Virus record (IMG/VR): IMGVR_UViG_3300042905_002313
Coordinates: 1-38,350 of that record
Source: a virus
Strand: one strand, 5' to 3'
DNA: 38,350 bases
Part shown: piece after piece, positions 14,008-37,415 of the stretch
Numbering within the stretch: the first letter of the stretch is position 1
Layout of the letters: every line of letters starts with the position of its first letter
The notes under the pieces: model-generated
What the model saw: only the letters and a program-made list of their open reading frames with translations
Databases searched by the model: none
Told to the model about the DNA's origin: nothing
Position numbers and translations under genes: made by a program

Positions 14008-14277
14008 GTGATCTCGATCCAGATCCACGGCAGCGCCATTGACACCGCAGAAGATCATTGCCGCGCCGAGGAGGCCGCGATGAAAGTGTTTGCCGAAGCG
14101 CGCTGCACGCCGCGCCAGGCCGAGGCCGAGTACCACCGCCAGTTTGACCGCCTCGATTGCGAGGTCGGAATGACTGGGCTCGCGAAGACGTGGCTGGAGG
14201 CGCGCGAGGCGGCAGAGCGTGCGGCACGTCGCGGCTGGCACAACCCTCTTAGCTGTCATGTTTCGATGCGCGCCTGA
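14008..14277 (+). CDS. Hypothetical early protein (89 aa), GTG start
   Basis: Encodes MISIQIHGSAIDTAEDHCRA..., a mostly helical, charged protein with many Ala and Glu. The start is GTG 14008 because GGAGGA lies 8 nt before it, the same leader as the preceding gene. The end lies in hairpin repeat copy 2. Part of the rightward accessory unit. No recognised motif. Confidence 0.75.
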   Translation: MISIQIHGSAIDTAEDHCRAEEAAMKVFAEARCTPRQAEAEYHRQFDRLDCEVGMTGLAKTWLEAREAAERAARRGWHNPLSCHVSMRA

Positions 14278-14347
14278 CCCTCCCTGCCGCCGCCCCGCTA
14301 CTGGGCGGCGTCGGGGAGCGCCAGGCTCCATCGATCAACGCAACGGA
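14273..14347 (+). repeat. Intercistronic hairpin repeat, copy 2
   Basis: It matches copy 1 (13926-13997) almost base for base across the CCTGACCCTCCCTGCCGCC arm, the GGCGGC arm and the CAACGGAG end; the loop differs (GCTACTG instead of GCGTTTG). It again starts at the stop codon (14275-14277) of the upstream gene. The duplication probably arose together with the gene-leader cassette. Confidence 0.75.
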
Positions 14348-14374
14348 GCCGCGAGGCTCCAGAAGGAGAAGACG

Positions 14375-14614
14375 ATGCAAGCGACGATTTGGTTGAGCGA
14401 CGACGAAACCGGCCACATCGAGGCCAAAGCGGTGTGGTCCGTCGAGGCGGCTGCGACGCCGTTCGAGCAGAACCGCATCGTGGCCTATTGCGGCAACATG
14501 AGCCTGTCGATGAACGTCGATAAGGCCGAACGCCTCGGCCGTGCGCTGCTCGATGCCGCCACCGCTCGTCGCGAGGAGATCGAGGCGCTGGAACAGGAGG
14601 CGTCCAATGAATAG
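14375..14614 (+). CDS. Hypothetical early protein (79 aa)
   Basis: MQATIWLSDDETGHIEAKAV... ends ...EIEALEQEASNE. It looks beta-rich at the N-terminus with a helical tail (RALLDAATARREEIEALEQE). AAGGAG lies 6 nt before ATG 14375. Short proteins with the 'single strand pair plus helix' arrangement are common in alphaproteobacterial phage early regions, but I cannot name it. Confidence 0.78.
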   Translation: MQATIWLSDDETGHIEAKAVWSVEAAATPFEQNRIVAYCGNMSLSMNVDKAERLGRALLDAATARREEIEALEQEASNE

Positions 14615-14909
14615 GTTTCCCGAACCCACCGCCGCCGCAGACGCGGCGACCGCGCGGCGCGACCGCGCTCAGGCGCTGGAGCTGCGCCTGCGGATGGCCG
14701 AAGCCCGCGCCATCGCCGCGTGCGCGGTGGCGGTCACCGGGCTCGCCGCCGCGCTGGTCGAGGCGGCGGAGCAGACCGCCGGGGCTCCGGCGCTTGACCG
14801 GCACGCCCTGGTTCAGCGGATCATGATGGATGTCTCGGCCGCCCTCGAGGTCGAGGCGAGCGAGCAGATCGAGGCGATCTGCGAGGCGATGGAGGACGCC
14901 AATGCGTGA
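14607..14909 (+). CDS. Hypothetical helical protein (100 aa)
   Basis: A helical, Ala/Glu-rich protein (MNRFPEPTAAADAATARRDR...) with long amphipathic helices and a moderately hydrophobic segment around residues 38-55 (AIAACAVAVTGLAAALV) that might be membrane-active but is interrupted by small residues. It overlaps the preceding gene by 8 bp and the next tiny gene by 8 bp. Function unknown. Confidence 0.7.
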   Translation: MNRFPEPTAAADAATARRDRAQALELRLRMAEARAIAACAVAVTGLAAALVEAAEQTAGAPALDRHALVQRIMMDVSAALEVEASEQIEAICEAMEDANA

Positions 14910-14991
14910 GCGCATCGAGCGTCAGATGAGACTGTTCCTGGCCGGCGGCGCGGCAGGGGCGGTGGTGGGAGTGCTGGCGGGGTTCATCTAG
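14902..14991 (+). CDS. Tiny membrane protein (29 aa)
   Basis: The sequence MRERIERQMRLFLAGGAAGA then VVGVLAGFI has a positive N-terminus and one hydrophobic Gly/Ala/Val segment (residues 11-29), a single-span membrane peptide. It starts inside the end of the preceding gene. Its stop (14989-14991) lies in the degenerate first half-unit of the repeat array, so array and gene touch directly. Confidence 0.65.
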   Translation: MRERIERQMRLFLAGGAAGAVVGVLAGFI

Positions 14992-15747
14992 CAGCCAAAG
15001 GAGGCGAACATCATCACGGTCGAGCGAGCCACAACACCGGAACATCATCAACCGCGGAGCGAGCCAGCGCCACCAAACATCAGGGCGCGAGAGCGAGCCA
15101 AGTTCGATGAACATCAAAGCTGCCGAGCGAGCCACGCGCAGCGAACATCACACCGCACGAGCGAGCCACGTTGGGCGAACATCAGTGCAATGGAGCGAGT
15201 CAGGGCTTTCGAACATCACAGAGCGAGAGCGAGCCATCGCGTAAGAACATCATTGGTCTGGAGCGAGCCAAAGAGGCGGAGCATCATGCACAATGAACGA
15301 GCCACGTTCGCGGAACATCAAGGCTGAAGAGCGAGCCAGTCGGAGCGAACATCAAAGTGTGCGAGCGAGCCATTCTGCCGGAACATCATCGGTGAGGAGC
15401 GAGCCACGAATTTGAACATCAGGGAGCGTGAGCGAGCCAAAGCGTTAGAACATCACCGAGTTCGAGCGAGCCACCGGTTTTGAACATCAAGGCCAGGGAG
15501 CGAGCCATGGTTCAAGAACATCATCGCCTGGGAGCGAGCCAAGAGAGGCGAACATCACATGTCCGGAGCGAGCCAAATCGTCCGAACATCAGCGTGGAAG
15601 AGCGAGCCATCAAGCCAGAACATCACTCGGGCCGAGCGAGTCACGCCCTGCGGAACATCATGAGCCCGGAGCGAGCCAGAGGATTTGAACATCAGCGAGT
15701 CGGAGCGAGTCAGTAGGCCCCGAACATCAGAGAACATGAGCGAACCC
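14988..15747 (+). repeat. Tandem interspaced guide RNA (TIGR-like) array
   Basis: About 22 units with 34-bp period (three of 35 and one of 33). Block A GAGCGAGCCA (starts 15022, 15057, 15091 ... 15669, 15703) alternates with block B GAACATCA (15006, 15040, 15075 ... 15687, 15722). Both spaces between them are variable, usually 8 nt (range 7-9), and I found no spacer twice among about 43. Blocks vary only slightly: GAGCGAGTCA at 15193, 15634, 15703; GAACGAGCCA at 15295; AAACATCA at 15075; GAGCATCA at 15279. Edge units are degenerate (AGCCA at 14993; GAGCGAACCC at 15738). Two different repeats with two short spacers per unit is the TIGR format, not CRISPR. It fills the only gap longer than 300 bp and is followed by a Tas-like gene. 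Confidence 0.88.
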
Positions 15748-15759
15748 CACTTAACCCTC

Positions 15760-15774
15760 AAGGAGGACATCATG
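15760..15774 (+). promoter_or_regulatory. Ribosome binding site that fixes the Tas start
   Basis: AAGGAGG (15760-15766) lies 5 nt before ATG 15772. Upstream in-frame ATGs at 15685 and 15736 lie inside the array and lack such a site, so the start at 15772 is chosen. A start at 15736 would add MSEPHLTLKEDI. Confidence 0.8.
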
Positions 15775-16686
15775 GATATCGAATCAGTCACCCGCATGAG
15801 CCGCGACATTCGTGCTGCGGCCACCACCCTGAGCGCCGACGAGGCCCGGTTCCTCGTGGACTCGTACTACCAACAGCAGGAGAACCGGATCCGGTCGTCG
15901 CATCAGGTCCGCACCCTGTCCGAAGGCGGCGAACCGCATTCGGTGCTGTCCTGGCTGGCGTCGAACAGCGACACGCTGGAGACCCAGATCGCCGGGGCTC
16001 TCGACCGTTACTCGGCCCATCACCCGGTCGGGGCGTGGATGCGGTCGCAGAAGGGCGTCGGCCCGGTCATCGCCGCTGGTCTGCTGGCACACATCGACAT
16101 CACGAAGGCCATCACCGCCGGTCACATCTGGAACTTCGCCGGTCTCAACCCCGAGATCGTCTGGAGAAAGGGCGAGAAGCGGCCCTTCAATGCGGCGCTC
16201 AAGACGTTGTGTTGGAAGCTGGGCGAGAGCTTCGTCAAGGTCAGCGGCTACGAAGACGCCTTCTATGGCCAGCTCTACAAGCAGCGGAAGGCGCTTGAGA
16301 CGGAGCGCAACCTGCGCGGCGAGTTCGCCGAACAGGCGGCGCTGGCGCTGACGAAAAAACAGATCGGCAAGACCACCGACGCCTACGCTTGGTACGCTGG
16401 CCGATTGACTCGCGAGCAGGCGGTCAAGTTGCTGGACGACAACAGCGCGGGCAAGGCGGCGAAGCAGGGCGGCGAGCCCGGAAGCGGGCAGGCGATGCTT
16501 CCTCCGGCGCATATCCACGCGCGGGCCAAGCGGGCGGCGGTGAAGCTCTTCCTGGCCCACATGCACGAGGTCTGGTTCGAGATCGAGAACGGCCGGAAGC
16601 CTGCGCGTCCCTACGCGCTGGAGCATCTCGGCCACGCTCACCAGATCGCGGTGCCGAACTGGCCGATGGTCGAGGGGGTGGCATGA
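15772..16686 (+). CDS. Tas-like Nop-domain protein, nuclease-less (TasA-like), 304 aa
   Basis: Residues about 17-90 are helical. Residues 93-125 (QKGVGPVIAAGLLAHID..., ...HIWNFAGLNP) are the helix-hairpin-helix with aromatic 'W.FAGL' seen in IS110-type transposases and in the Nop-domain Tas proteins. A basic patch follows (WRKGEKRPFNAALKTLCWKL, 131-150), then a helical region and a conserved end LPPAHIHARAKRAAVKLFL (243-261). Known Tas proteins bind processed dual-spacer tigRNAs and target DNA; some carry HNH or RuvC domains. Neither those motifs nor an IS110 DEDD RuvC domain is visible here, so DNA binding without cutting is inferred. It stands right behind the array and is coupled to the next gene by ATGA. 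Confidence 0.82.
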   Translation: MDIESVTRMSRDIRAAATTLSADEARFLVDSYYQQQENRIRSSHQVRTLSEGGEPHSVLSWLASNSDTLETQIAGALDRYSAHHPVGAWMRSQKGVGPVIAAGLLAHIDITKAITAGHIWNFAGLNPEIVWRKGEKRPFNAALKTLCWKLGESFVKVSGYEDAFYGQLYKQRKALETERNLRGEFAEQAALALTKKQIGKTTDAYAWYAGRLTREQAVKLLDDNSAGKAAKQGGEPGSGQAMLPPAHIHARAKRAAVKLFLAHMHEVWFEIENGRKPARPYALEHLGHAHQIAVPNWPMVEGVA

Positions 16687-16859
16687 CCACCCACACCCCC
16701 ACCCTCGCCGCCCGCCTTGCGCGGGCGGATGTAGGGGACGCACAATGGCGGCGGATCACGCCGCAGTTTCGCCACCACGCCACCGCGCGGTGGGAGGACA
16801 CACTGGACACGATCCGCCGCGCTGGGCTGGCGGTCGTGGAAGCGGAGGACGGACGATGA
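16683..16859 (+). CDS. Small hypothetical protein coupled to the Tas-like gene (58 aa)
   Basis: MTTHTPTLAARLARADVGDA... ends ...AVVEAEDGR; basic and aromatic in the middle (QWRRITPQFRHHATARWEDT). The start overlaps the Tas-like stop (ATGA), so both are likely made from one mRNA. It could be an accessory to the RNA-guided system or an independent phage gene; sequence alone does not decide. Confidence 0.7.
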   Translation: MTTHTPTLAARLARADVGDAQWRRITPQFRHHATARWEDTLDTIRRAGLAVVEAEDGR

Positions 16860-17095
16860 AAAGAAAATCGGTGTGTGTCGGGTGCTCATACGCGAAATGG
16901 GATCGTGACCCATCAGGCCGCCTCAATAGGCGCAAGAGCGGGTACTGCACATGGACGCTGCCTGAGATCAAGCTGCCGAAGGCATTCGCTTGGATCTACC
17001 CCTCGAAACCAGTGGGCGGCTGGATCAATCGCGAGCATCCCGAAACGCTCAAGACACAATCACAATGCGATTTCAGGAAGGAGGACGGACGATGA
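16856..17095 (+). CDS. Cys-containing hypothetical protein (79 aa)
   Basis: Contains CVGC at residues 7-10, GYC near 31 and CDF near 72, in a basic context (MKRKSVCVGCSYAKWDRDPS...). Four Cys in this layout could hold one zinc ion. It starts with ATGA overlap and is followed by another such overlap at 17092. Family not recognised. Confidence 0.72.
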   Translation: MKRKSVCVGCSYAKWDRDPSGRLNRRKSGYCTWTLPEIKLPKAFAWIYPSKPVGGWINREHPETLKTQSQCDFRKEDGR

Positions 17096-17184
17096 ACGAC
17101 GACCAGATCGCAGCGTTGACCGCGCTGCTTGGGGCCGGCGCAGCGGTGCTTGCGGTGGTGCTGGCGGTGAGGTGGTTCTCATGA
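17092..17184 (+). CDS. Tiny membrane protein (30 aa)
   Basis: MNDDQIAALTALLGAGAAVL then AVVLAVRWFS: an acidic N-terminus followed by one strongly hydrophobic helix of about 20 residues and a basic end, so a single-span inner-membrane peptide. Coupled by ATGA at both ends. Such peptides in phage early regions are often of unknown role. Confidence 0.7.
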   Translation: MNDDQIAALTALLGAGAAVLAVVLAVRWFS

Positions 17185-17357
17185 CCGCCGATCCCCTCCC
17201 CCGCCTTGCCCGCCTCGCGGGCTGGTGGCGCGGCGCGGCCAGCGTGCGCGTGGCCGAGGCCGATGAATACCCGGCGCAGTCGGACGCGCGGCGGCGGAAT
17301 CTATTGATCGCTGCGCAGTACGAGCGGCGGGCGCAGGAGTTGGAAGAACGGAGATGA
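17181..17357 (+). CDS. Small hypothetical protein (58 aa)
   Basis: MTADPLPRLARLAGWWRGAA... ends ...YERRAQELEERR, an amphipathic, strongly helical and charged protein. The start overlaps the previous stop by four bases. No family recognised. Confidence 0.68.
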   Translation: MTADPLPRLARLAGWWRGAASVRVAEADEYPAQSDARRRNLLIAAQYERRAQELEERR

Positions 17358-17360
17358 CCC

Positions 17361-17570
17361 ATGATCAGCAGATTTGGCTGGACCTTGTCGGAGGATCACA
17401 CACTGGTTCAGATGTGGTTGCGAGGGGCGACAGCAGCCCTGATCGGCGAGAGGCTCGGGAAGAGCCGCGACGCGATCCTTGGCAGGATTCGACGCCTCGG
17501 CTTGAACCGACAATCATCAGCATCAACGAGATTAACCGGCGGCTTCTCGCGGCAGGATGCAAGCCGATGA
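17361..17570 (+). CDS. GcrA-like HTH protein (69 aa)
   Basis: Residues 1-51 (SRFGWTLSEDHTLVQMWLRG..., ...IGERLGKSRDAILGRIRRLG) match the N-terminal Myb/SANT-like DNA-binding part of GcrA-type proteins: W-x-x-x-x-D, then 'G.ta..IGerLG.sr.ai.gri.RLgl'. In alphaproteobacteria GcrA works with sigma70 at methylated promoters. The copy lacks the longer C-terminal sigma-binding domain. After RLGLNRQ the frame ends with low-similarity SSASTRLTGGFSRQDASR; a more protein-like continuation lies in the -1 frame (to 17599), so the 3' end may be shifted. Confidence 0.78.
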   Translation: MISRFGWTLSEDHTLVQMWLRGATAALIGERLGKSRDAILGRIRRLGLNRQSSASTRLTGGFSRQDASR

Positions 17571-17595
17571 CGCGAGAGGAACTGGAGGCCAAGCT

Positions 17596-17847
17596 ATGAG
17601 CGACGATATCCTGACCGAACTGAAAGCCGACTGGATGGAGTGCGCGTGTTACGAGGGCTCGCTCTCCGTTGACCGCGAGGTCATCGACCGCGCCGCCGCC
17701 GAGATCGAGCGGCTGCGCGCCGAGATCGCTGGATACAAGGAAAATGAAATCCAGCTAGAGAGCCGGATCGAGTGGATGCGCGAGCGCATCAAGGAAATGG
17801 AAATCGACAGTGTCAGATCCGCACGGTTGGTCGGATGGCGACTGTAG
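17596..17847 (+). CDS. EIERLRAR-type coiled-coil protein 1 (83 aa)
   Basis: MSDDILTELKADWMECACYE... contains the module AAAEIERLRAEIAGYKENEI, a heptad-pattern coiled coil (residues about 33-75). Three further genes downstream share this module at nearly identical DNA. Starts with ATGA overlap with the stop (17597-17599) of the alternative frame. Probably dimerises through the coil; function unknown. Confidence 0.75.
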   Translation: MSDDILTELKADWMECACYEGSLSVDREVIDRAAAEIERLRAEIAGYKENEIQLESRIEWMRERIKEMEIDSVRSARLVGWRL

Positions 17848-17863
17848 ATCTGGAGACCAAGCC

Positions 17864-18133
17864 ATGAGCGACGCCAAGATGCCCCAGCGATATGACCTAG
17901 TCGGGGAGTACGACAGCTACATGTCGCCAATTGAGGAGGGCGACTATGTCCGGGTCGAGGATGTGCTCGCCGAGATCGAGCGGCTGCGCGCCCGCGAGGC
18001 GTCACTGTGGGAGGCACTCGGGCTGCTGACCACTCTTGCGCCACGAATGGAAATCGATACGTCCGACCCGATGAAAATGGCGAAAACCATCGAGGCGACT
18101 GTGCGCGCCGCGCTTAAGGAGGCCCAGCCATGA
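17864..18133 (+). CDS. EIERLRAR-type coiled-coil protein 2 (89 aa)
   Basis: MSDAKMPQRYDLVGEYDSYM... then VLAEIERLRAREASLWEALG. N-terminal half is a strand-rich acidic segment (SPIEEGDYVRVEDVL), the second half a coiled coil and helical tail ending KEAQP. The next gene starts in its stop (ATGA). It belongs to the repeated module family of this region. Confidence 0.75.
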   Translation: MSDAKMPQRYDLVGEYDSYMSPIEEGDYVRVEDVLAEIERLRAREASLWEALGLLTTLAPRMEIDTSDPMKMAKTIEATVRAALKEAQP

Positions 18134-18462
18134 GCGACGATTTGGTTTCCCGACTGCGTTCACCCGAAGAAATCGTCTTCCCCGCCGGTACGGAGAGCGC
18201 TGTCTGCGGCTGGACGATACGAACCTTGGAGCCATTCTCCATGTGGAGCAGCAGCAGCGACAAGCTGGAAGCCGCAGACGAGATCGAGCGCCTGCGCGCC
18301 CGCGTGGCGGTGCTGGAGCAGCACCTGCGCGACGCAGTCTCTGTCGCCGACATGGCAATGTCGGACGCTAACGGGTGCGATTGCCGTGCCGAAAAGAAAT
18401 GGGATCGGGAAGCAGAGTTAAGGGTGTTTCGCGACGCACTGGAGGCCCAGCCATGTGCATGA
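18130..18462 (+). CDS. EIERLRAR-type coiled-coil protein 3 (110 aa)
   Basis: MSDDLVSRLRSPEEIVFPAG... with the module ADEIERLRARVAVLEQHLRD at about residues 49-68 and a late CDCR segment. The ribosome binding site AAGGAGGCCCAGCC before ATG is the same as that of paralogue 4. Overlaps both neighbours. Function unknown. Confidence 0.75.
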   Translation: MSDDLVSRLRSPEEIVFPAGTESAVCGWTIRTLEPFSMWSSSSDKLEAADEIERLRARVAVLEQHLRDAVSVADMAMSDANGCDCRAEKKWDREAELRVFRDALEAQPCA

Positions 18463-18836
18463 TCGACACCAACGACGGCTTTGCCACCGTCGTCGGCGAC
18501 CGCTACGTCGTCGCGCGCAAGCCCCATCGGTGCCTTGAGTGCCACCGTCAGATCGATGCCGGAGAGCGGTATTTCCGCGAAACGTACATCTACGAGGGCG
18601 AAGCCTGTCGTCACAAGACCTGCGCTCATTGTTTGGCCGTGCGTGAGTGGTTGCTGGCAGAGTGCGGCGGGTTCATCTACGGCGGCGTGCGGGAAGACGC
18701 GAAGAATCACGTCGTCGATAACCCCGGCTGCTACGACGCCAAGCTCTATCGGGCGGTCGTCGGGATGAAATGGAAGTGGCGCGCGAAGAGCGGGCGTTTG
18801 CTGCCTGTGCCTGCGCTCAAGGAGGCCCAGCCATGA
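18453..18836 (+). CDS. Cys-rich zinc-ribbon-type protein (127 aa)
   Basis: RKPHRCLECHRQIDAGERYF... followed by ACRHKTCAHC gives C-x-x-C and H/C-x-x-C pairs (residues about 28-31 and 54-61) with spacing suited to one zinc-ribbon or LIM-like site. After it comes LAVREWLLAECGGFIYGGVR. Similar zinc-binding proteins are widespread in phages of alphaproteobacteria with unknown targets. Overlaps paralogues 3 and 4. Confidence 0.75.
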   Translation: MCMIDTNDGFATVVGDRYVVARKPHRCLECHRQIDAGERYFRETYIYEGEACRHKTCAHCLAVREWLLAECGGFIYGGVREDAKNHVVDNPGCYDAKLYRAVVGMKWKWRAKSGRLLPVPALKEAQP

Positions 18837-19078
18837 GCGACGAAATCACATTTCCGCCGATGAAGGGATCAGGCTCCGCCGTCGCCGCCTTTGCCATCGG
18901 GGCAGACGGATCGACGTTGGCGATGGTGCCGAACGGCGACACCGTGGTGTCCTACAACACGCTGAACGCCGAGATCGAGCGGCTGCGCGCCCGCGTCGAG
19001 GTGCTAGAAACTGCGCTGCGAGACATCGTCGGAGATGAACGGTACGACCGCTGGATGCGGGGGGAGCCAAACCCATGA
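18833..19078 (+). CDS. EIERLRAR-type coiled-coil protein 4 (81 aa)
   Basis: MSDEITFPPMKGSGSAVAAF... with NAEIERLRARVEVLETALRD (about residues 46-65). The N-terminal segment (AFAIGADGSTLAMVPNGDT) forms a beta-rich domain distinct from the other paralogues. Same start context AAGGAGGCCCAGCC-ATGAGCGA as paralogue 3. Its stop overlaps the next start. Confidence 0.75.
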   Translation: MSDEITFPPMKGSGSAVAAFAIGADGSTLAMVPNGDTVVSYNTLNAEIERLRARVEVLETALRDIVGDERYDRWMRGEPNP

Positions 19079-19239
19079 TCATCCTCGCCGCCATCTACCT
19101 CGCCATCTGCGGCCTCGCCACCGCGCTGGCTGGCGTCGCGCTGCTGTTCGAGGCGCGCGGCGACAGGTTCGTCATGCGTTTGGGCGCGGGACTGCTGATC
19201 GGCGGGTTGGGCGGCGTGGCGCTGGCGGTGGCGATATGA
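19075..19239 (+). CDS. Small two-span membrane protein (54 aa)
   Basis: Two hydrophobic helices (MIILAAIYLAICGLATALAG, and LGAGLLIGGLGGVALAVAI) are joined by a short charged turn (FEARGDRFVMR). A hairpin membrane protein in the inner membrane is likely. Coupled to its neighbours by ATGA at both ends. It lies next to the lysis genes of the opposite strand, so a holin-like role is possible, but the location in the early unit argues otherwise. Confidence 0.72.
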   Translation: MIILAAIYLAICGLATALAGVALLFEARGDRFVMRLGAGLLIGGLGGVALAVAI

Positions 19240-30444: not shown

Positions 30445-30755
30445 CAGGTCTTCTCCAGCATTAGGGTGGTGATGCCGGTCCCGTCAGCCTGCACCACGCG
30501 GATCGTGTAGTTGGTCGAACCGATACGCAGCGCGTCGCCCTCTTTCGTGCCGCTTGGCAGATCGGCGGTTGCGGCGACGAAGCGCGGCGACGACACCGCG
30601 AAGGGTACGCCGCCGCGCGCATCGACAGCCTCGTAGGCGTCGTCGTAGATGCCGGGGATCGTTCTGCCGACCGTCTGACCGGCCAGCGTGACGCGCGCCG
30701 AGACGCCGAAAATATCGACATCCAGCAGCGCGGCGATATCACCTTCGATGTTCAT
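30444..30755 (-). CDS. Head-tail joining protein, gpFII-like (103 aa)
   Basis: IAALLDVDIFGVSARVTLAG, ...GIYDDAYEAVDARGGVPFAV, ...SGTKEGDALRIGSTNYTIRV and DGTGITTLMLEK match the small beta-sandwich head-tail attachment proteins (lambda gpFII family). It bridges connector and tail terminator. Starts with ATGA overlap with the glycosyltransferase fusion gene, which shows that gene is inserted in the morphogenetic order. Confidence 0.85.
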   Translation of the reverse strand: MNIEGDIAALLDVDIFGVSARVTLAGQTVGRTIPGIYDDAYEAVDARGGVPFAVSSPRFVAATADLPSGTKEGDALRIGSTNYTIRVVQADGTGITTLMLEKT

Positions 30756-32296
30756 GCGATGGGCTCCAGTTTCCCGCTCTTCTCCAGGTACTCGATCACC
30801 AGCTTGGCGATGGTCTCGGGCCGCGCCAGTGCCTGACACGCCGCAGCCTTGGTCGTCGTGTCGCGGGCGCAGAACGAATAGTTCGGCGGGTGGACCCGGT
30901 GGCATGGGTAGCAGCCGAGCGCCAGCGGCTCCGCGCTTGCGGTGTTGATCCAGTGCTTGGTCAGGTTCTCGACGCTGCTGTGCGAAAGCGTGATGACCTT
31001 GAGCATGGGCTCGAAAGCCACCGCGTTGGCGATCAGACTTTCGGTCGCGACCACCGCATCGGCCTGGAGCGCGTAGGCCAGCGCATGCCGCACCGGCCAC
31101 TCCATGCCAGCATAGATGCCGTAGGGCTCGACGCCGAGGACGCTCTCGTCCTTGATGTCGCCGAGCGCCACCGAGTAGATCTTGCGCTCGGCGAGTAGCT
31201 CCATCAGCCGCTGCGTGTAGGGCCAGTATTTCACCGGCCCGCTGCCCGCCGGATTGATCACGACGACCGGGCCGGGAAGTTCCGCGCGGATGCGCTTGGC
31301 CCAGGCTTCCTCGGCGGCGCTGGGGTAGTACCGCTGCAAGAAATTGGTCGTCGGCAGGTCCGAATAGGCGTGGACCATTTCGAGATAGTTGGAATTCATT
31401 AGCCGATGCCGCACGCTCTGCGGCAGGAAGAATTCATAGCTGGTCTCATGCGGCAGCAGTCGGTTCTCGACGCTGCCGATTAGATTGATCCACTTGGTGT
31501 GGCGCTTTGCCTGATGGCACCAGAACGCCACGGCCTCGTCGTTCGGGATCACGGTATCGCTGAACACGACGAGGTCATCGATGTTGGGGTCGTTCTTGAG
31601 CACCGCACCGCCGGTCGGACCGACGTAGCAAGTGACATGATAGCCGCGCTCTTTGTAGTTCGCGCACACGCTCGACGCCCAGAGTGCGTCGCCGTGTCCG
31701 CCGACGCGCACGATGCCGACGCTCTTCTCGGGCTTCGGCTCGCTCGCCTTGTCGCGTTGGCCTTCGCCGATCTTCTCCCGGCGGTACACCTGGAGGAATG
31801 AATACTCGTCGTCCTGGTCGCGCGTTTCGTTGACCAGCAGCGTCCAGTCCGGCGCGATCTCGCGCATGGCCGCGACGATGTCCTCGGGCGCGAAATCGTG
31901 CTTGTGGTCGGGGTTCGCGCCGGGCTGGCCGATGCGCGGGTACAGATCGCGGTGCGGCAGGTAGAGCGTCAGATGCCCGCCGGGCGCGATCACCCGCCAC
32001 CACTCACGCAGCGCGGCCTTGTAATCCACGATGTGCTCCAGCGTGTGGCTCGAAAACACCGTGTCGAACGACCCATCCGCGAACATCGCCAGCCTCGACG
32101 CATCGCTGATCGCGATATCGGGCCGCATGCGGATGCCGAACAGTTTGGTGTCGGTCAGGTTATCGACACCGATCAGATGCGGCCAGACCTTGCGTGGCCC
32201 GCATCCGATGTCGAGGCCGCGATTGCAGTACCGCAGAACCTCATACTTGATCTTGCTCGCTTCGTCTCCGTTGCTCGTTTCAAGACGCCAAACCAT
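30752..32296 (-). CDS. SAM methyltransferase-GT9 glycosyltransferase fusion (514 aa)
   Basis: Residues about 1-175 are a class I methyltransferase: GLDIGCGPRKVWPHLIGVDN (28-47), FDTVFSSHTLEHIVDY and VIAPGGHLTLYLPHRD. Residues about 190-510 are like GT9 (heptosyltransferase): VGIVRVGGHGDALWASSVC, VVVINPAGSGPVKYWPYTQR, ...ADAVVATESLIANAVAF, and a Cys-rich C-terminal part (CYPCH, FCARD). It lies inside the virion operon between capsid and head-tail joining genes, so it may glycosylate virion proteins or alter surface sugars. It follows a hairpin terminator at 32310-32350. Confidence 0.85.
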   Translation of the reverse strand: MVWRLETSNGDEASKIKYEVLRYCNRGLDIGCGPRKVWPHLIGVDNLTDTKLFGIRMRPDIAISDASRLAMFADGSFDTVFSSHTLEHIVDYKAALREWWRVIAPGGHLTLYLPHRDLYPRIGQPGANPDHKHDFAPEDIVAAMREIAPDWTLLVNETRDQDDEYSFLQVYRREKIGEGQRDKASEPKPEKSVGIVRVGGHGDALWASSVCANYKERGYHVTCYVGPTGGAVLKNDPNIDDLVVFSDTVIPNDEAVAFWCHQAKRHTKWINLIGSVENRLLPHETSYEFFLPQSVRHRLMNSNYLEMVHAYSDLPTTNFLQRYYPSAAEEAWAKRIRAELPGPVVVINPAGSGPVKYWPYTQRLMELLAERKIYSVALGDIKDESVLGVEPYGIYAGMEWPVRHALAYALQADAVVATESLIANAVAFEPMLKVITLSHSSVENLTKHWINTASAEPLALGCYPCHRVHPPNYSFCARDTTTKAAACQALARPETIAKLVIEYLEKSGKLEPIA

Positions 32297-36593: not shown

Positions 36594-37415
36594 TCACGCG
36601 CTGCGGGCTACGCGCCCGGCGTCTTTCGAGAGCGGGCGACGAGATGTCGAAACGCTGCGACCGATTCTTCCTGGCGCGACCGACGCCACGATCCGGCTCT
36701 GGGCCGGGTTGAATGTGCCGCCGATGTCGCCCTGGCCTTCCACAATCGCCAGACCAGCGGCCGGGACTGCTGTAGCAGCAGCCGTGGCCGAGCCGGTGCC
36801 AGATACCGTGGCGTCTCCTGCGGCCGCCGTGGCCGTCGTGGCGACGATTGCCGAGCCCGCCGCAGAGACTGCGGCCGCGCCTGCCGCCGCCGTGGCGGTG
36901 GCGGGTGCGAGGCCGGTAGCAGCGGCCGAAACCGTGGCGGTGCCTGCCGCTGCGGTCGCAGACGCAGCGGCGATTGCCGCCCCGACCGCCGAAACCGTGG
37001 CTACGCCTGCCGCCGCGACCGGGTTGGCCGACTGGATCGAGCCGCCGGTCGAGCCGACGCCCGACACGGTCGCGACGCCCGCCGCAGCGGTCGCCGTCGA
37101 AGCGGCGGTGGACGCGCCGACGCCGGATACCGTGGCAGAGCCTGCCGCCGCGACCGGATCCGCAGCCTGCACCGAGCCTGCGGTCGAGCCGACTGCCGAG
37201 ACCGTGGCGGTGCCTGCCGCCGCGACCGGGTCAGCCGCCGCGATGGACGATCCGACCGCCGAGACGGTTGCGGTGCCCGCCGCCGGGACTGCGTCCGCCG
37301 ATCCAGCCGCCGCGCTGTGCCCCAGCAGCGGCGAGAAAAGGAACGAGAGGCCGCTGAGCGGCTTCGCCGCCTGCTGCGCGAACAGCGCCGATCCTGGCGT
37401 CCTGACGCGCAGCAT
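36594..37415 (-). CDS. Ala/Gly-repeat virion-type protein (273 aa)
   Basis: Residues 45-235 hold nine degenerate repeats of 20-25 residues with the core AAGxATVSxVGS (starting near 45, 67, 91, 111, 136, 157, 178, 198, 219). The N-terminus is LRVRTPGSALFAQQAAKPLS, the C-terminus basic (RIGRSVSTSRRPLSKDAGRV). The DNA shows matching repeats with GCCGAGACCGTGGCG-type segments. Such proteins may form extended fibers or linkers. Neighbouring adaptor and lectin-like genes support a virion appendage, but the family is not recognised. Confidence 0.72.
   Translation of the reverse strand: MLRVRTPGSALFAQQAAKPLSGLSFLFSPLLGHSAAAGSADAVPAAGTATVSAVGSSIAAADPVAAAGTATVSAVGSTAGSVQAADPVAAAGSATVSGVGASTAASTATAAAGVATVSGVGSTGGSIQSANPVAAAGVATVSAVGAAIAAASATAAAGTATVSAAATGLAPATATAAAGAAAVSAAGSAIVATTATAAAGDATVSGTGSATAAATAVPAAGLAIVEGQGDIGGTFNPAQSRIVASVAPGRIGRSVSTSRRPLSKDAGRVARSA

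Follow-up and report, generated by a model that had tools for sequence, protein, structure and literature searches.

A Phage TIGR-TasA Locus with 22 Guide Units and a Candidate Natural Target of a Related System

The window analyzed here is the whole 38,350-nt stretch of viral DNA of IMG/VR record IMGVR_UViG_3300042905_002313. It carries a TIGR-TasA locus, an identification that is near certain, in which an array of 22 guide units is followed by tasA, the gene of a 304-aa Nop-type protein without a nuclease domain. The system is complete, and its array probably serves as a swappable set of guides that would silence rival mobile elements of its host through nuclease-free DNA binding. Gene identity, array anatomy, fold, and half-edge covariation were established in the present analysis. 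Phage TIGR-TasA systems were already described by Faure et al. (2025, PMC12045711), who left the natural targets and role of TIGR systems open, above all those of nuclease-free TasA, the commonest form. The window locus is a further example of this kind, and the additions made here are the half-edge covariation, the absence of the cassette from syntenic kin together with the turnover of the guides, and a candidate target.

Results

Anatomy of the Array

The array occupies positions 14993–15745 on the plus strand and has the layout reported by Faure et al. (2025, PMC12045711). Its units were called from the window sequence between 14988 and 15737. Each comprises 34 nt and consists, in this order, of a 10-nt edge repeat (GAGCGAGCCA), spacer A (8 nt), an 8-nt loop repeat (GAACATCA), and spacer B (8 nt). 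Spacers of other lengths were found in unit 2 (B, 9 nt), unit 13 (A, 7 nt), and units 20 and 22 (A, 9 nt each). A first-pass annotation of the same DNA had proposed about 22 units of roughly 34 bp with two conserved blocks and variable segments of about 8 nt; 22 units with a 34-nt period were found, and the range it gave for the locus (14988–16686) was right to within a few bases.

Within the array the edge sequence occurs exactly 17 times and the loop sequence 20 times. Outside it, no exact copy of the edge was found on either strand, and the loop sequence was present twice on the minus strand and not at all on the plus strand. Because exact plus strand copies are confined to the array, a chance origin of the repeats is excluded. 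The array is bounded by truncated edges, a 5′-truncated AGCCA at 14993–14997, which would start the first tigRNA, and a 3′-truncated GAGCGAAC at 15738–15745, which would end the last one. Box D (GA) and box C (CA) are identical in edge and loop. With the exception of the terminator, every published sequence hallmark of dual-repeat arrays is present. Rfam gave no relevant match. CRISPR-Cas was ruled out, as the two short repeats, the 8-nt spacers, and a neighboring Tas protein do not fit a single repeat of 25–36 nt with spacers of comparable length and cas genes.

In the published systems, edge and loop repeats of 8–12 nt alternate, terminal edges are truncated, box D (UG) and box C (CCA) are common to both repeats, cutting occurs in the middle of the edge, and spacers A and B pair with opposite DNA strands (PMC12045711). 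TIGR-TasA systems such as FpTIGR of Flavonifractor plautii share with the window locus a solo-Nop Tas protein of ∼300 aa, a dual-repeat array with truncated terminal edges, box C/D-like motifs common to edge and loop, and a phage or provirus location. The window locus differs in its 8-nt spacers and 34-nt unit (published spacers mostly 9 nt, unit 36 nt), in its GA and CA boxes, and in two additional base pairs at the edge (2+2), where the published systems have one. It also has 22 units, compared with the usual 5–15, and its array, located upstream of tasA, extends into the ribosome-binding site with no terminator-like site between. Spacers of 8 nt are also found in the TIGR-TasH system SpTIGR.

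The TasA Protein

The tasA gene (15772–16686, plus strand; 304 aa) is preceded by the ribosome-binding site AAGGAGG at 15760–15766, which is separated from the ATG at 15772 by exactly 5 nt, as the first-pass annotation had placed it. That annotation had also read the product as a Nop/IS110-like protein without a nuclease and the locus as TIGR-Tas of the TasA kind, and both assignments were borne out by profile, sequence, and fold comparisons. The protein scored 210 bits against the NCBIfam equivalog model for TIGR_Tas, NF052498.1 (cut-off 100), and 20 bits against the IS110 model NF033542.1 (cut-off 140). NF052498.1 was also matched by all 34 aligned relatives. Among solved structures, the nearest by sequence were TasR (9mty; 3e-14) and TasH (21kl; 5e-10).

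An AlphaFold2 model built with 34 phage relatives (pLDDT 87) resembled TasH with a Z score of 18.7 over 221 residues and TasR with a Z score of 17.6 over 193 residues at 2.7 Å; the similarity to IS110 recombinases was lower (Z about 12). The fold is of the Tas/IS110-Nop type and the closest relatives are Tas proteins. The Nop fold and the same dimer and RNA-binding region are shared by structure with TIGR-TasR (9mty) and TIGR-TasH (21kl, 9w04). The alignments begin at model residue 18–21, which corresponds to residue 112 of TasR and residue 64–66 of TasH, so the nuclease domains of TasR and TasH have no counterpart in the model, which leaves no room for an N-terminal nuclease. No nuclease match was obtained for the protein in Pfam, NCBIfam, or PHROGs. 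Since the N-terminal nuclease is missing, the protein belongs to the TasA subtype. In contrast to TasR and TasH it has no N-terminal RuvC or HNH domain, and therefore no cleavage is expected. With IS110 and IS621 bridge-RNA recombinases the protein shares the C-terminal RNA-binding fold; it differs from them in lacking the DEDD domain and in having a guide array in place of one bridge RNA. No transposon ends were seen, although no search was aimed at them.

Public labels for this nuclease-free family are misleading for annotation, as NF052498.1 is named “endonuclease” and PHROG 4285 “transposase.”

Covariation of Half-edges

Cutting in the middle of the edge would unite the 5′ half of one edge (i) with the 3′ half of the next (i+1) in a single tigRNA, and pairing between these two halves is therefore expected; the two halves of the same DNA edge would be separated. 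Covariation was examined across 578 clean units belonging to 51 loci, with 1000 shuffles within loci as reference. Half-edges of the same predicted tigRNA paired above the shuffled level (505 versus 469 ± 5 and 527 versus 480 ± 5), which none of the 1000 shuffles reached. The two halves of the same physical DNA edge paired at the shuffled level (458 versus 464 and 458 versus 460). This pattern in the sequences supports a processing in which array RNA of the clade would be cut once per unit at mid-edge, and supports the tigRNA as the probable unit of selection in the clade of the window.

Relatives and Guide Turnover

A profile search gave about 293 relatives in viral contigs, 80 of which were retrieved, and 4 in sequenced genomes. 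Arrays of the window type are present in most of the 80 retrieved relatives, and the architecture is kept in dozens of phages. In six of the seven deviating loci of the clade, the CA of box C is replaced by CG in both repeats, as expected if edge and loop bind the same symmetric protein.

The guides themselves are not kept. The nearest relative, whose TasA is 94% identical, has one recognizably similar guide in common with the window array. Other close pairs have a small number of units in common, arranged in the same order, with some guides one base apart. Judged from these sequence comparisons, guides turn over nearly completely between close relatives, which indicates a fast-changing specificity. 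Several guides differ by one base between the arrays of L063 and L064, L070 and L083, and L011 and L013, as if tracking drifting targets.

A different arrangement was seen in locus L005 (4870–4950 and 5960–6010) and in the near-identical L006, where tasA lies between two solitary one-unit tigRNA genes and has no array. The half-edges of these solitary tigRNAs match each other (AGCCA with GAGCG, and AGTCA with GAACG). This arrangement is not in the description of PMC12045711. For the two solitary tigRNAs of L005, the best match found was no better than 2 mismatches.

A Candidate Target in Acidobacteriaceae KBS 96

Targets were searched in the form 5′-A-(0–2 nt)-rc(B)-3′, where rc(B) is the reverse complement of spacer B; this form was derived from the published 3′ overhangs and is presumed to hold for the clade. 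The chromosome of Acidobacteriaceae KBS 96 contains a TasA prophage (L089) with six guides. Guide 2 (TAAAAGCA / TTCGATTC) has one match in the 6.69-Mb host scaffold, with 16 of 16 positions identical, a gap of 0, and the predicted geometry. The other five guides and all reversed controls had no match in this scaffold.

The matched site (6329962–6329977; 7963–7978 of L491) corresponds to nt 26–41 of an open reading frame of the excisionase family (phrog_66). This reading frame adjoins a repressor-like gene as well as an integrase, beyond which a small terminase is encoded, and it belongs to a second, integrase-bearing prophage-like element. The nucleotide similarity of this element to the TasA prophage is limited to short stretches of 68–71%. 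When all viral contigs were searched for the target 16-mer, 33 matches were obtained; as none lies in a relative of the excisionase, they are taken as background. The KBS 96 match is a candidate target, a lead and not proof.

Genomic Setting

The remainder of the window encodes a phage with large and small terminase, portal, major head protein, tape measure, and J-like tail protein, together with primase, RusA, endolysin, and a repressor-like gene. The same structural proteins occur at ≥90% identity in many contigs. In kin contigs that span the region of the cassette, similarity ends at 14325 and is regained from about 19236, delimiting an accessory stretch at 14326–19235 that holds the tas cassette and differs from the syntenic kin. 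Neither TasA nor an array was found in these spanning contigs. The cassette, being absent from syntenic kin, is therefore accessory cargo.

At the edge of this stretch, the segment 13991–14325 is 93% identical to several kin contigs, unlike its surroundings. With a strong G+C-rich inverted repeat around 14262–14335, this segment may be a regulatory or exchange site. Two further features were noted among the structural genes. A 514-aa open reading frame between them (30752–32296, minus strand) starts with a methyltransferase domain (PHROG, residues 59–119), followed by a long further domain, and an alanine-rich reading frame that ends the structural genes contains a 135-bp tandem repeat in 2.8 copies (36923–37298).

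Discussion

RNA processing, pairing with both DNA strands, and DNA bending are carried over from the published relatives, and on this basis the locus would act as follows. The array and tasA would be transcribed together, and each edge repeat would be cut once, probably by a host RNase, to give 22 tigRNAs of about 34 nt that extend from mid-edge to mid-edge. A TasA dimer would grip one tigRNA through the GA of box D and the CA of box C in edge and loop. Spacers A and B would pair with opposite DNA strands, and TasA would bend and occupy the target site, blocking transcription or replication there. Because TasA has no nuclease, the site would be occupied and blocked rather than cut. By homology to its relatives, TasA is likely a silent, guide-directed DNA binder.

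The array most likely represents exchangeable guides against competing mobile elements of the same host. The first-pass annotation had suggested that the bound RNA could repress or mark DNA of rival phages, plasmids, or the host and not cut it. One candidate target, the location as cargo, and the fast turnover of guides point to this use as the best-supported role, in which the tigRNAs would silence rival elements.

Several results weigh against this reading. For the six KBS 96 guides, ∼0.062 exact matches are expected by chance, and the observed match is an isolated one. No match was obtained for three guides from another metagenome-assembled genome. The guides of the window had no exact match in the window, in kin with 94% identical terminase, or in 2 Mb of DNA from kin phages. 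Their near matches fell into 90 site families compared with 63 ± 10 (p = 0.012, uncorrected; predicted geometry only), an excess that is not convincing. For the 1251 parsed spacer pairs of the clade, matches in TasA phages or their kin were not in excess. A simple consensus scan found no terminator-like site between the array and tasA, which follows directly.

The wider searches gave similar counts. All parsed guides had 2 exact matches in 2.76 Mb of TasA-phage DNA, compared with 4–8 for permuted pairs, and 2 compared with 2.8 ± 1.7 when related phages only were considered; the parsed set includes some loop-to-loop pairs, which lower the power and cause no bias. Phages of the same sample gave no match, and clade guides as a whole showed no excess in same-sample contigs. 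When all arrays were scanned against 0.9 Mb of locus DNA with no phase assumed beforehand, no geometry was prominent. In one contig (G015; 11791–11806 of L138), a guide of L041 exactly matches the spacer and −10 box of a perfect TTGACA-N17-TATAAT promoter. As the count of exact matches is at chance, this match was not used as evidence.

The same RNA-guided complex could instead act on the genome of its own phage or on the host, by timing expression or by aiding an integrase or recombination through DNA bending. Lacking a nuclease, TasA would do no harm by binding its own genome; a DNA bend of about 180 degrees is published for TasR, and aid to an integrase has been proposed (PMC12045711). Two guides also match the tail gene J of the window with one mismatch (24067 and 24769), but both matches are GC-rich and mismatched and lie in a structural gene. 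Moreover, across all TasA phages, matches to self or kin were no more frequent than those of permuted guides, and fast guide turnover would be unexpected for guides to fixed own sites. We consider this explanation unlikely.

It is also doubtful that array and TasA form a counter-defence or decoy system, for example with guides that bind host defence genes. Such a function is among the roles left open by the discoverers (PMC12045711) and would suit a cassette in the accessory region of a phage, but no target in a host gene was seen, and the sole exact chromosomal match lies in the second prophage-like element of KBS 96 and not in a defence gene.

An IS110-type transposon, perhaps degenerate, beside a tandem repeat is highly improbable. 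In its favor are a weak Pfam match to Transposase_20 (19.2 bits, cut-off 21.3), the PHROG label of the family, and a fold common to IS110 recombinases. Against it, the match to NF033542.1 is far below the cut-off and covers residues 57–128 only, the N-terminal DEDD catalytic domain is absent, and the repeat is a guide array whose architecture is conserved in dozens of phages.

A silent, two-strand DNA binder of 304 aa that needs no protospacer-adjacent motif could be of practical use in repression tools. With its 22 guides, the window locus is a further, compact example from a phage, and its relatives allow guide processing to be tested from sequence and show how rapidly guides turn over. In the isolate KBS 96, one chromosome holds both a TasA guide and, in a second prophage-like element, a site that it matches perfectly, which makes the role directly testable. 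As a tentative generalization, TIGR-TasA arrays may be nuclease-free weapons between mobile elements, with prophage tigRNAs silencing early or excision genes of co-resident rival prophages, and with guides that evolve as single closed units in the clade with 8-nt spacers, down to loci that have two solitary tigRNAs in place of an array. If this is true, the KBS 96 guide on the start of the excisionase gene of a co-resident element would be the first natural TIGR target.
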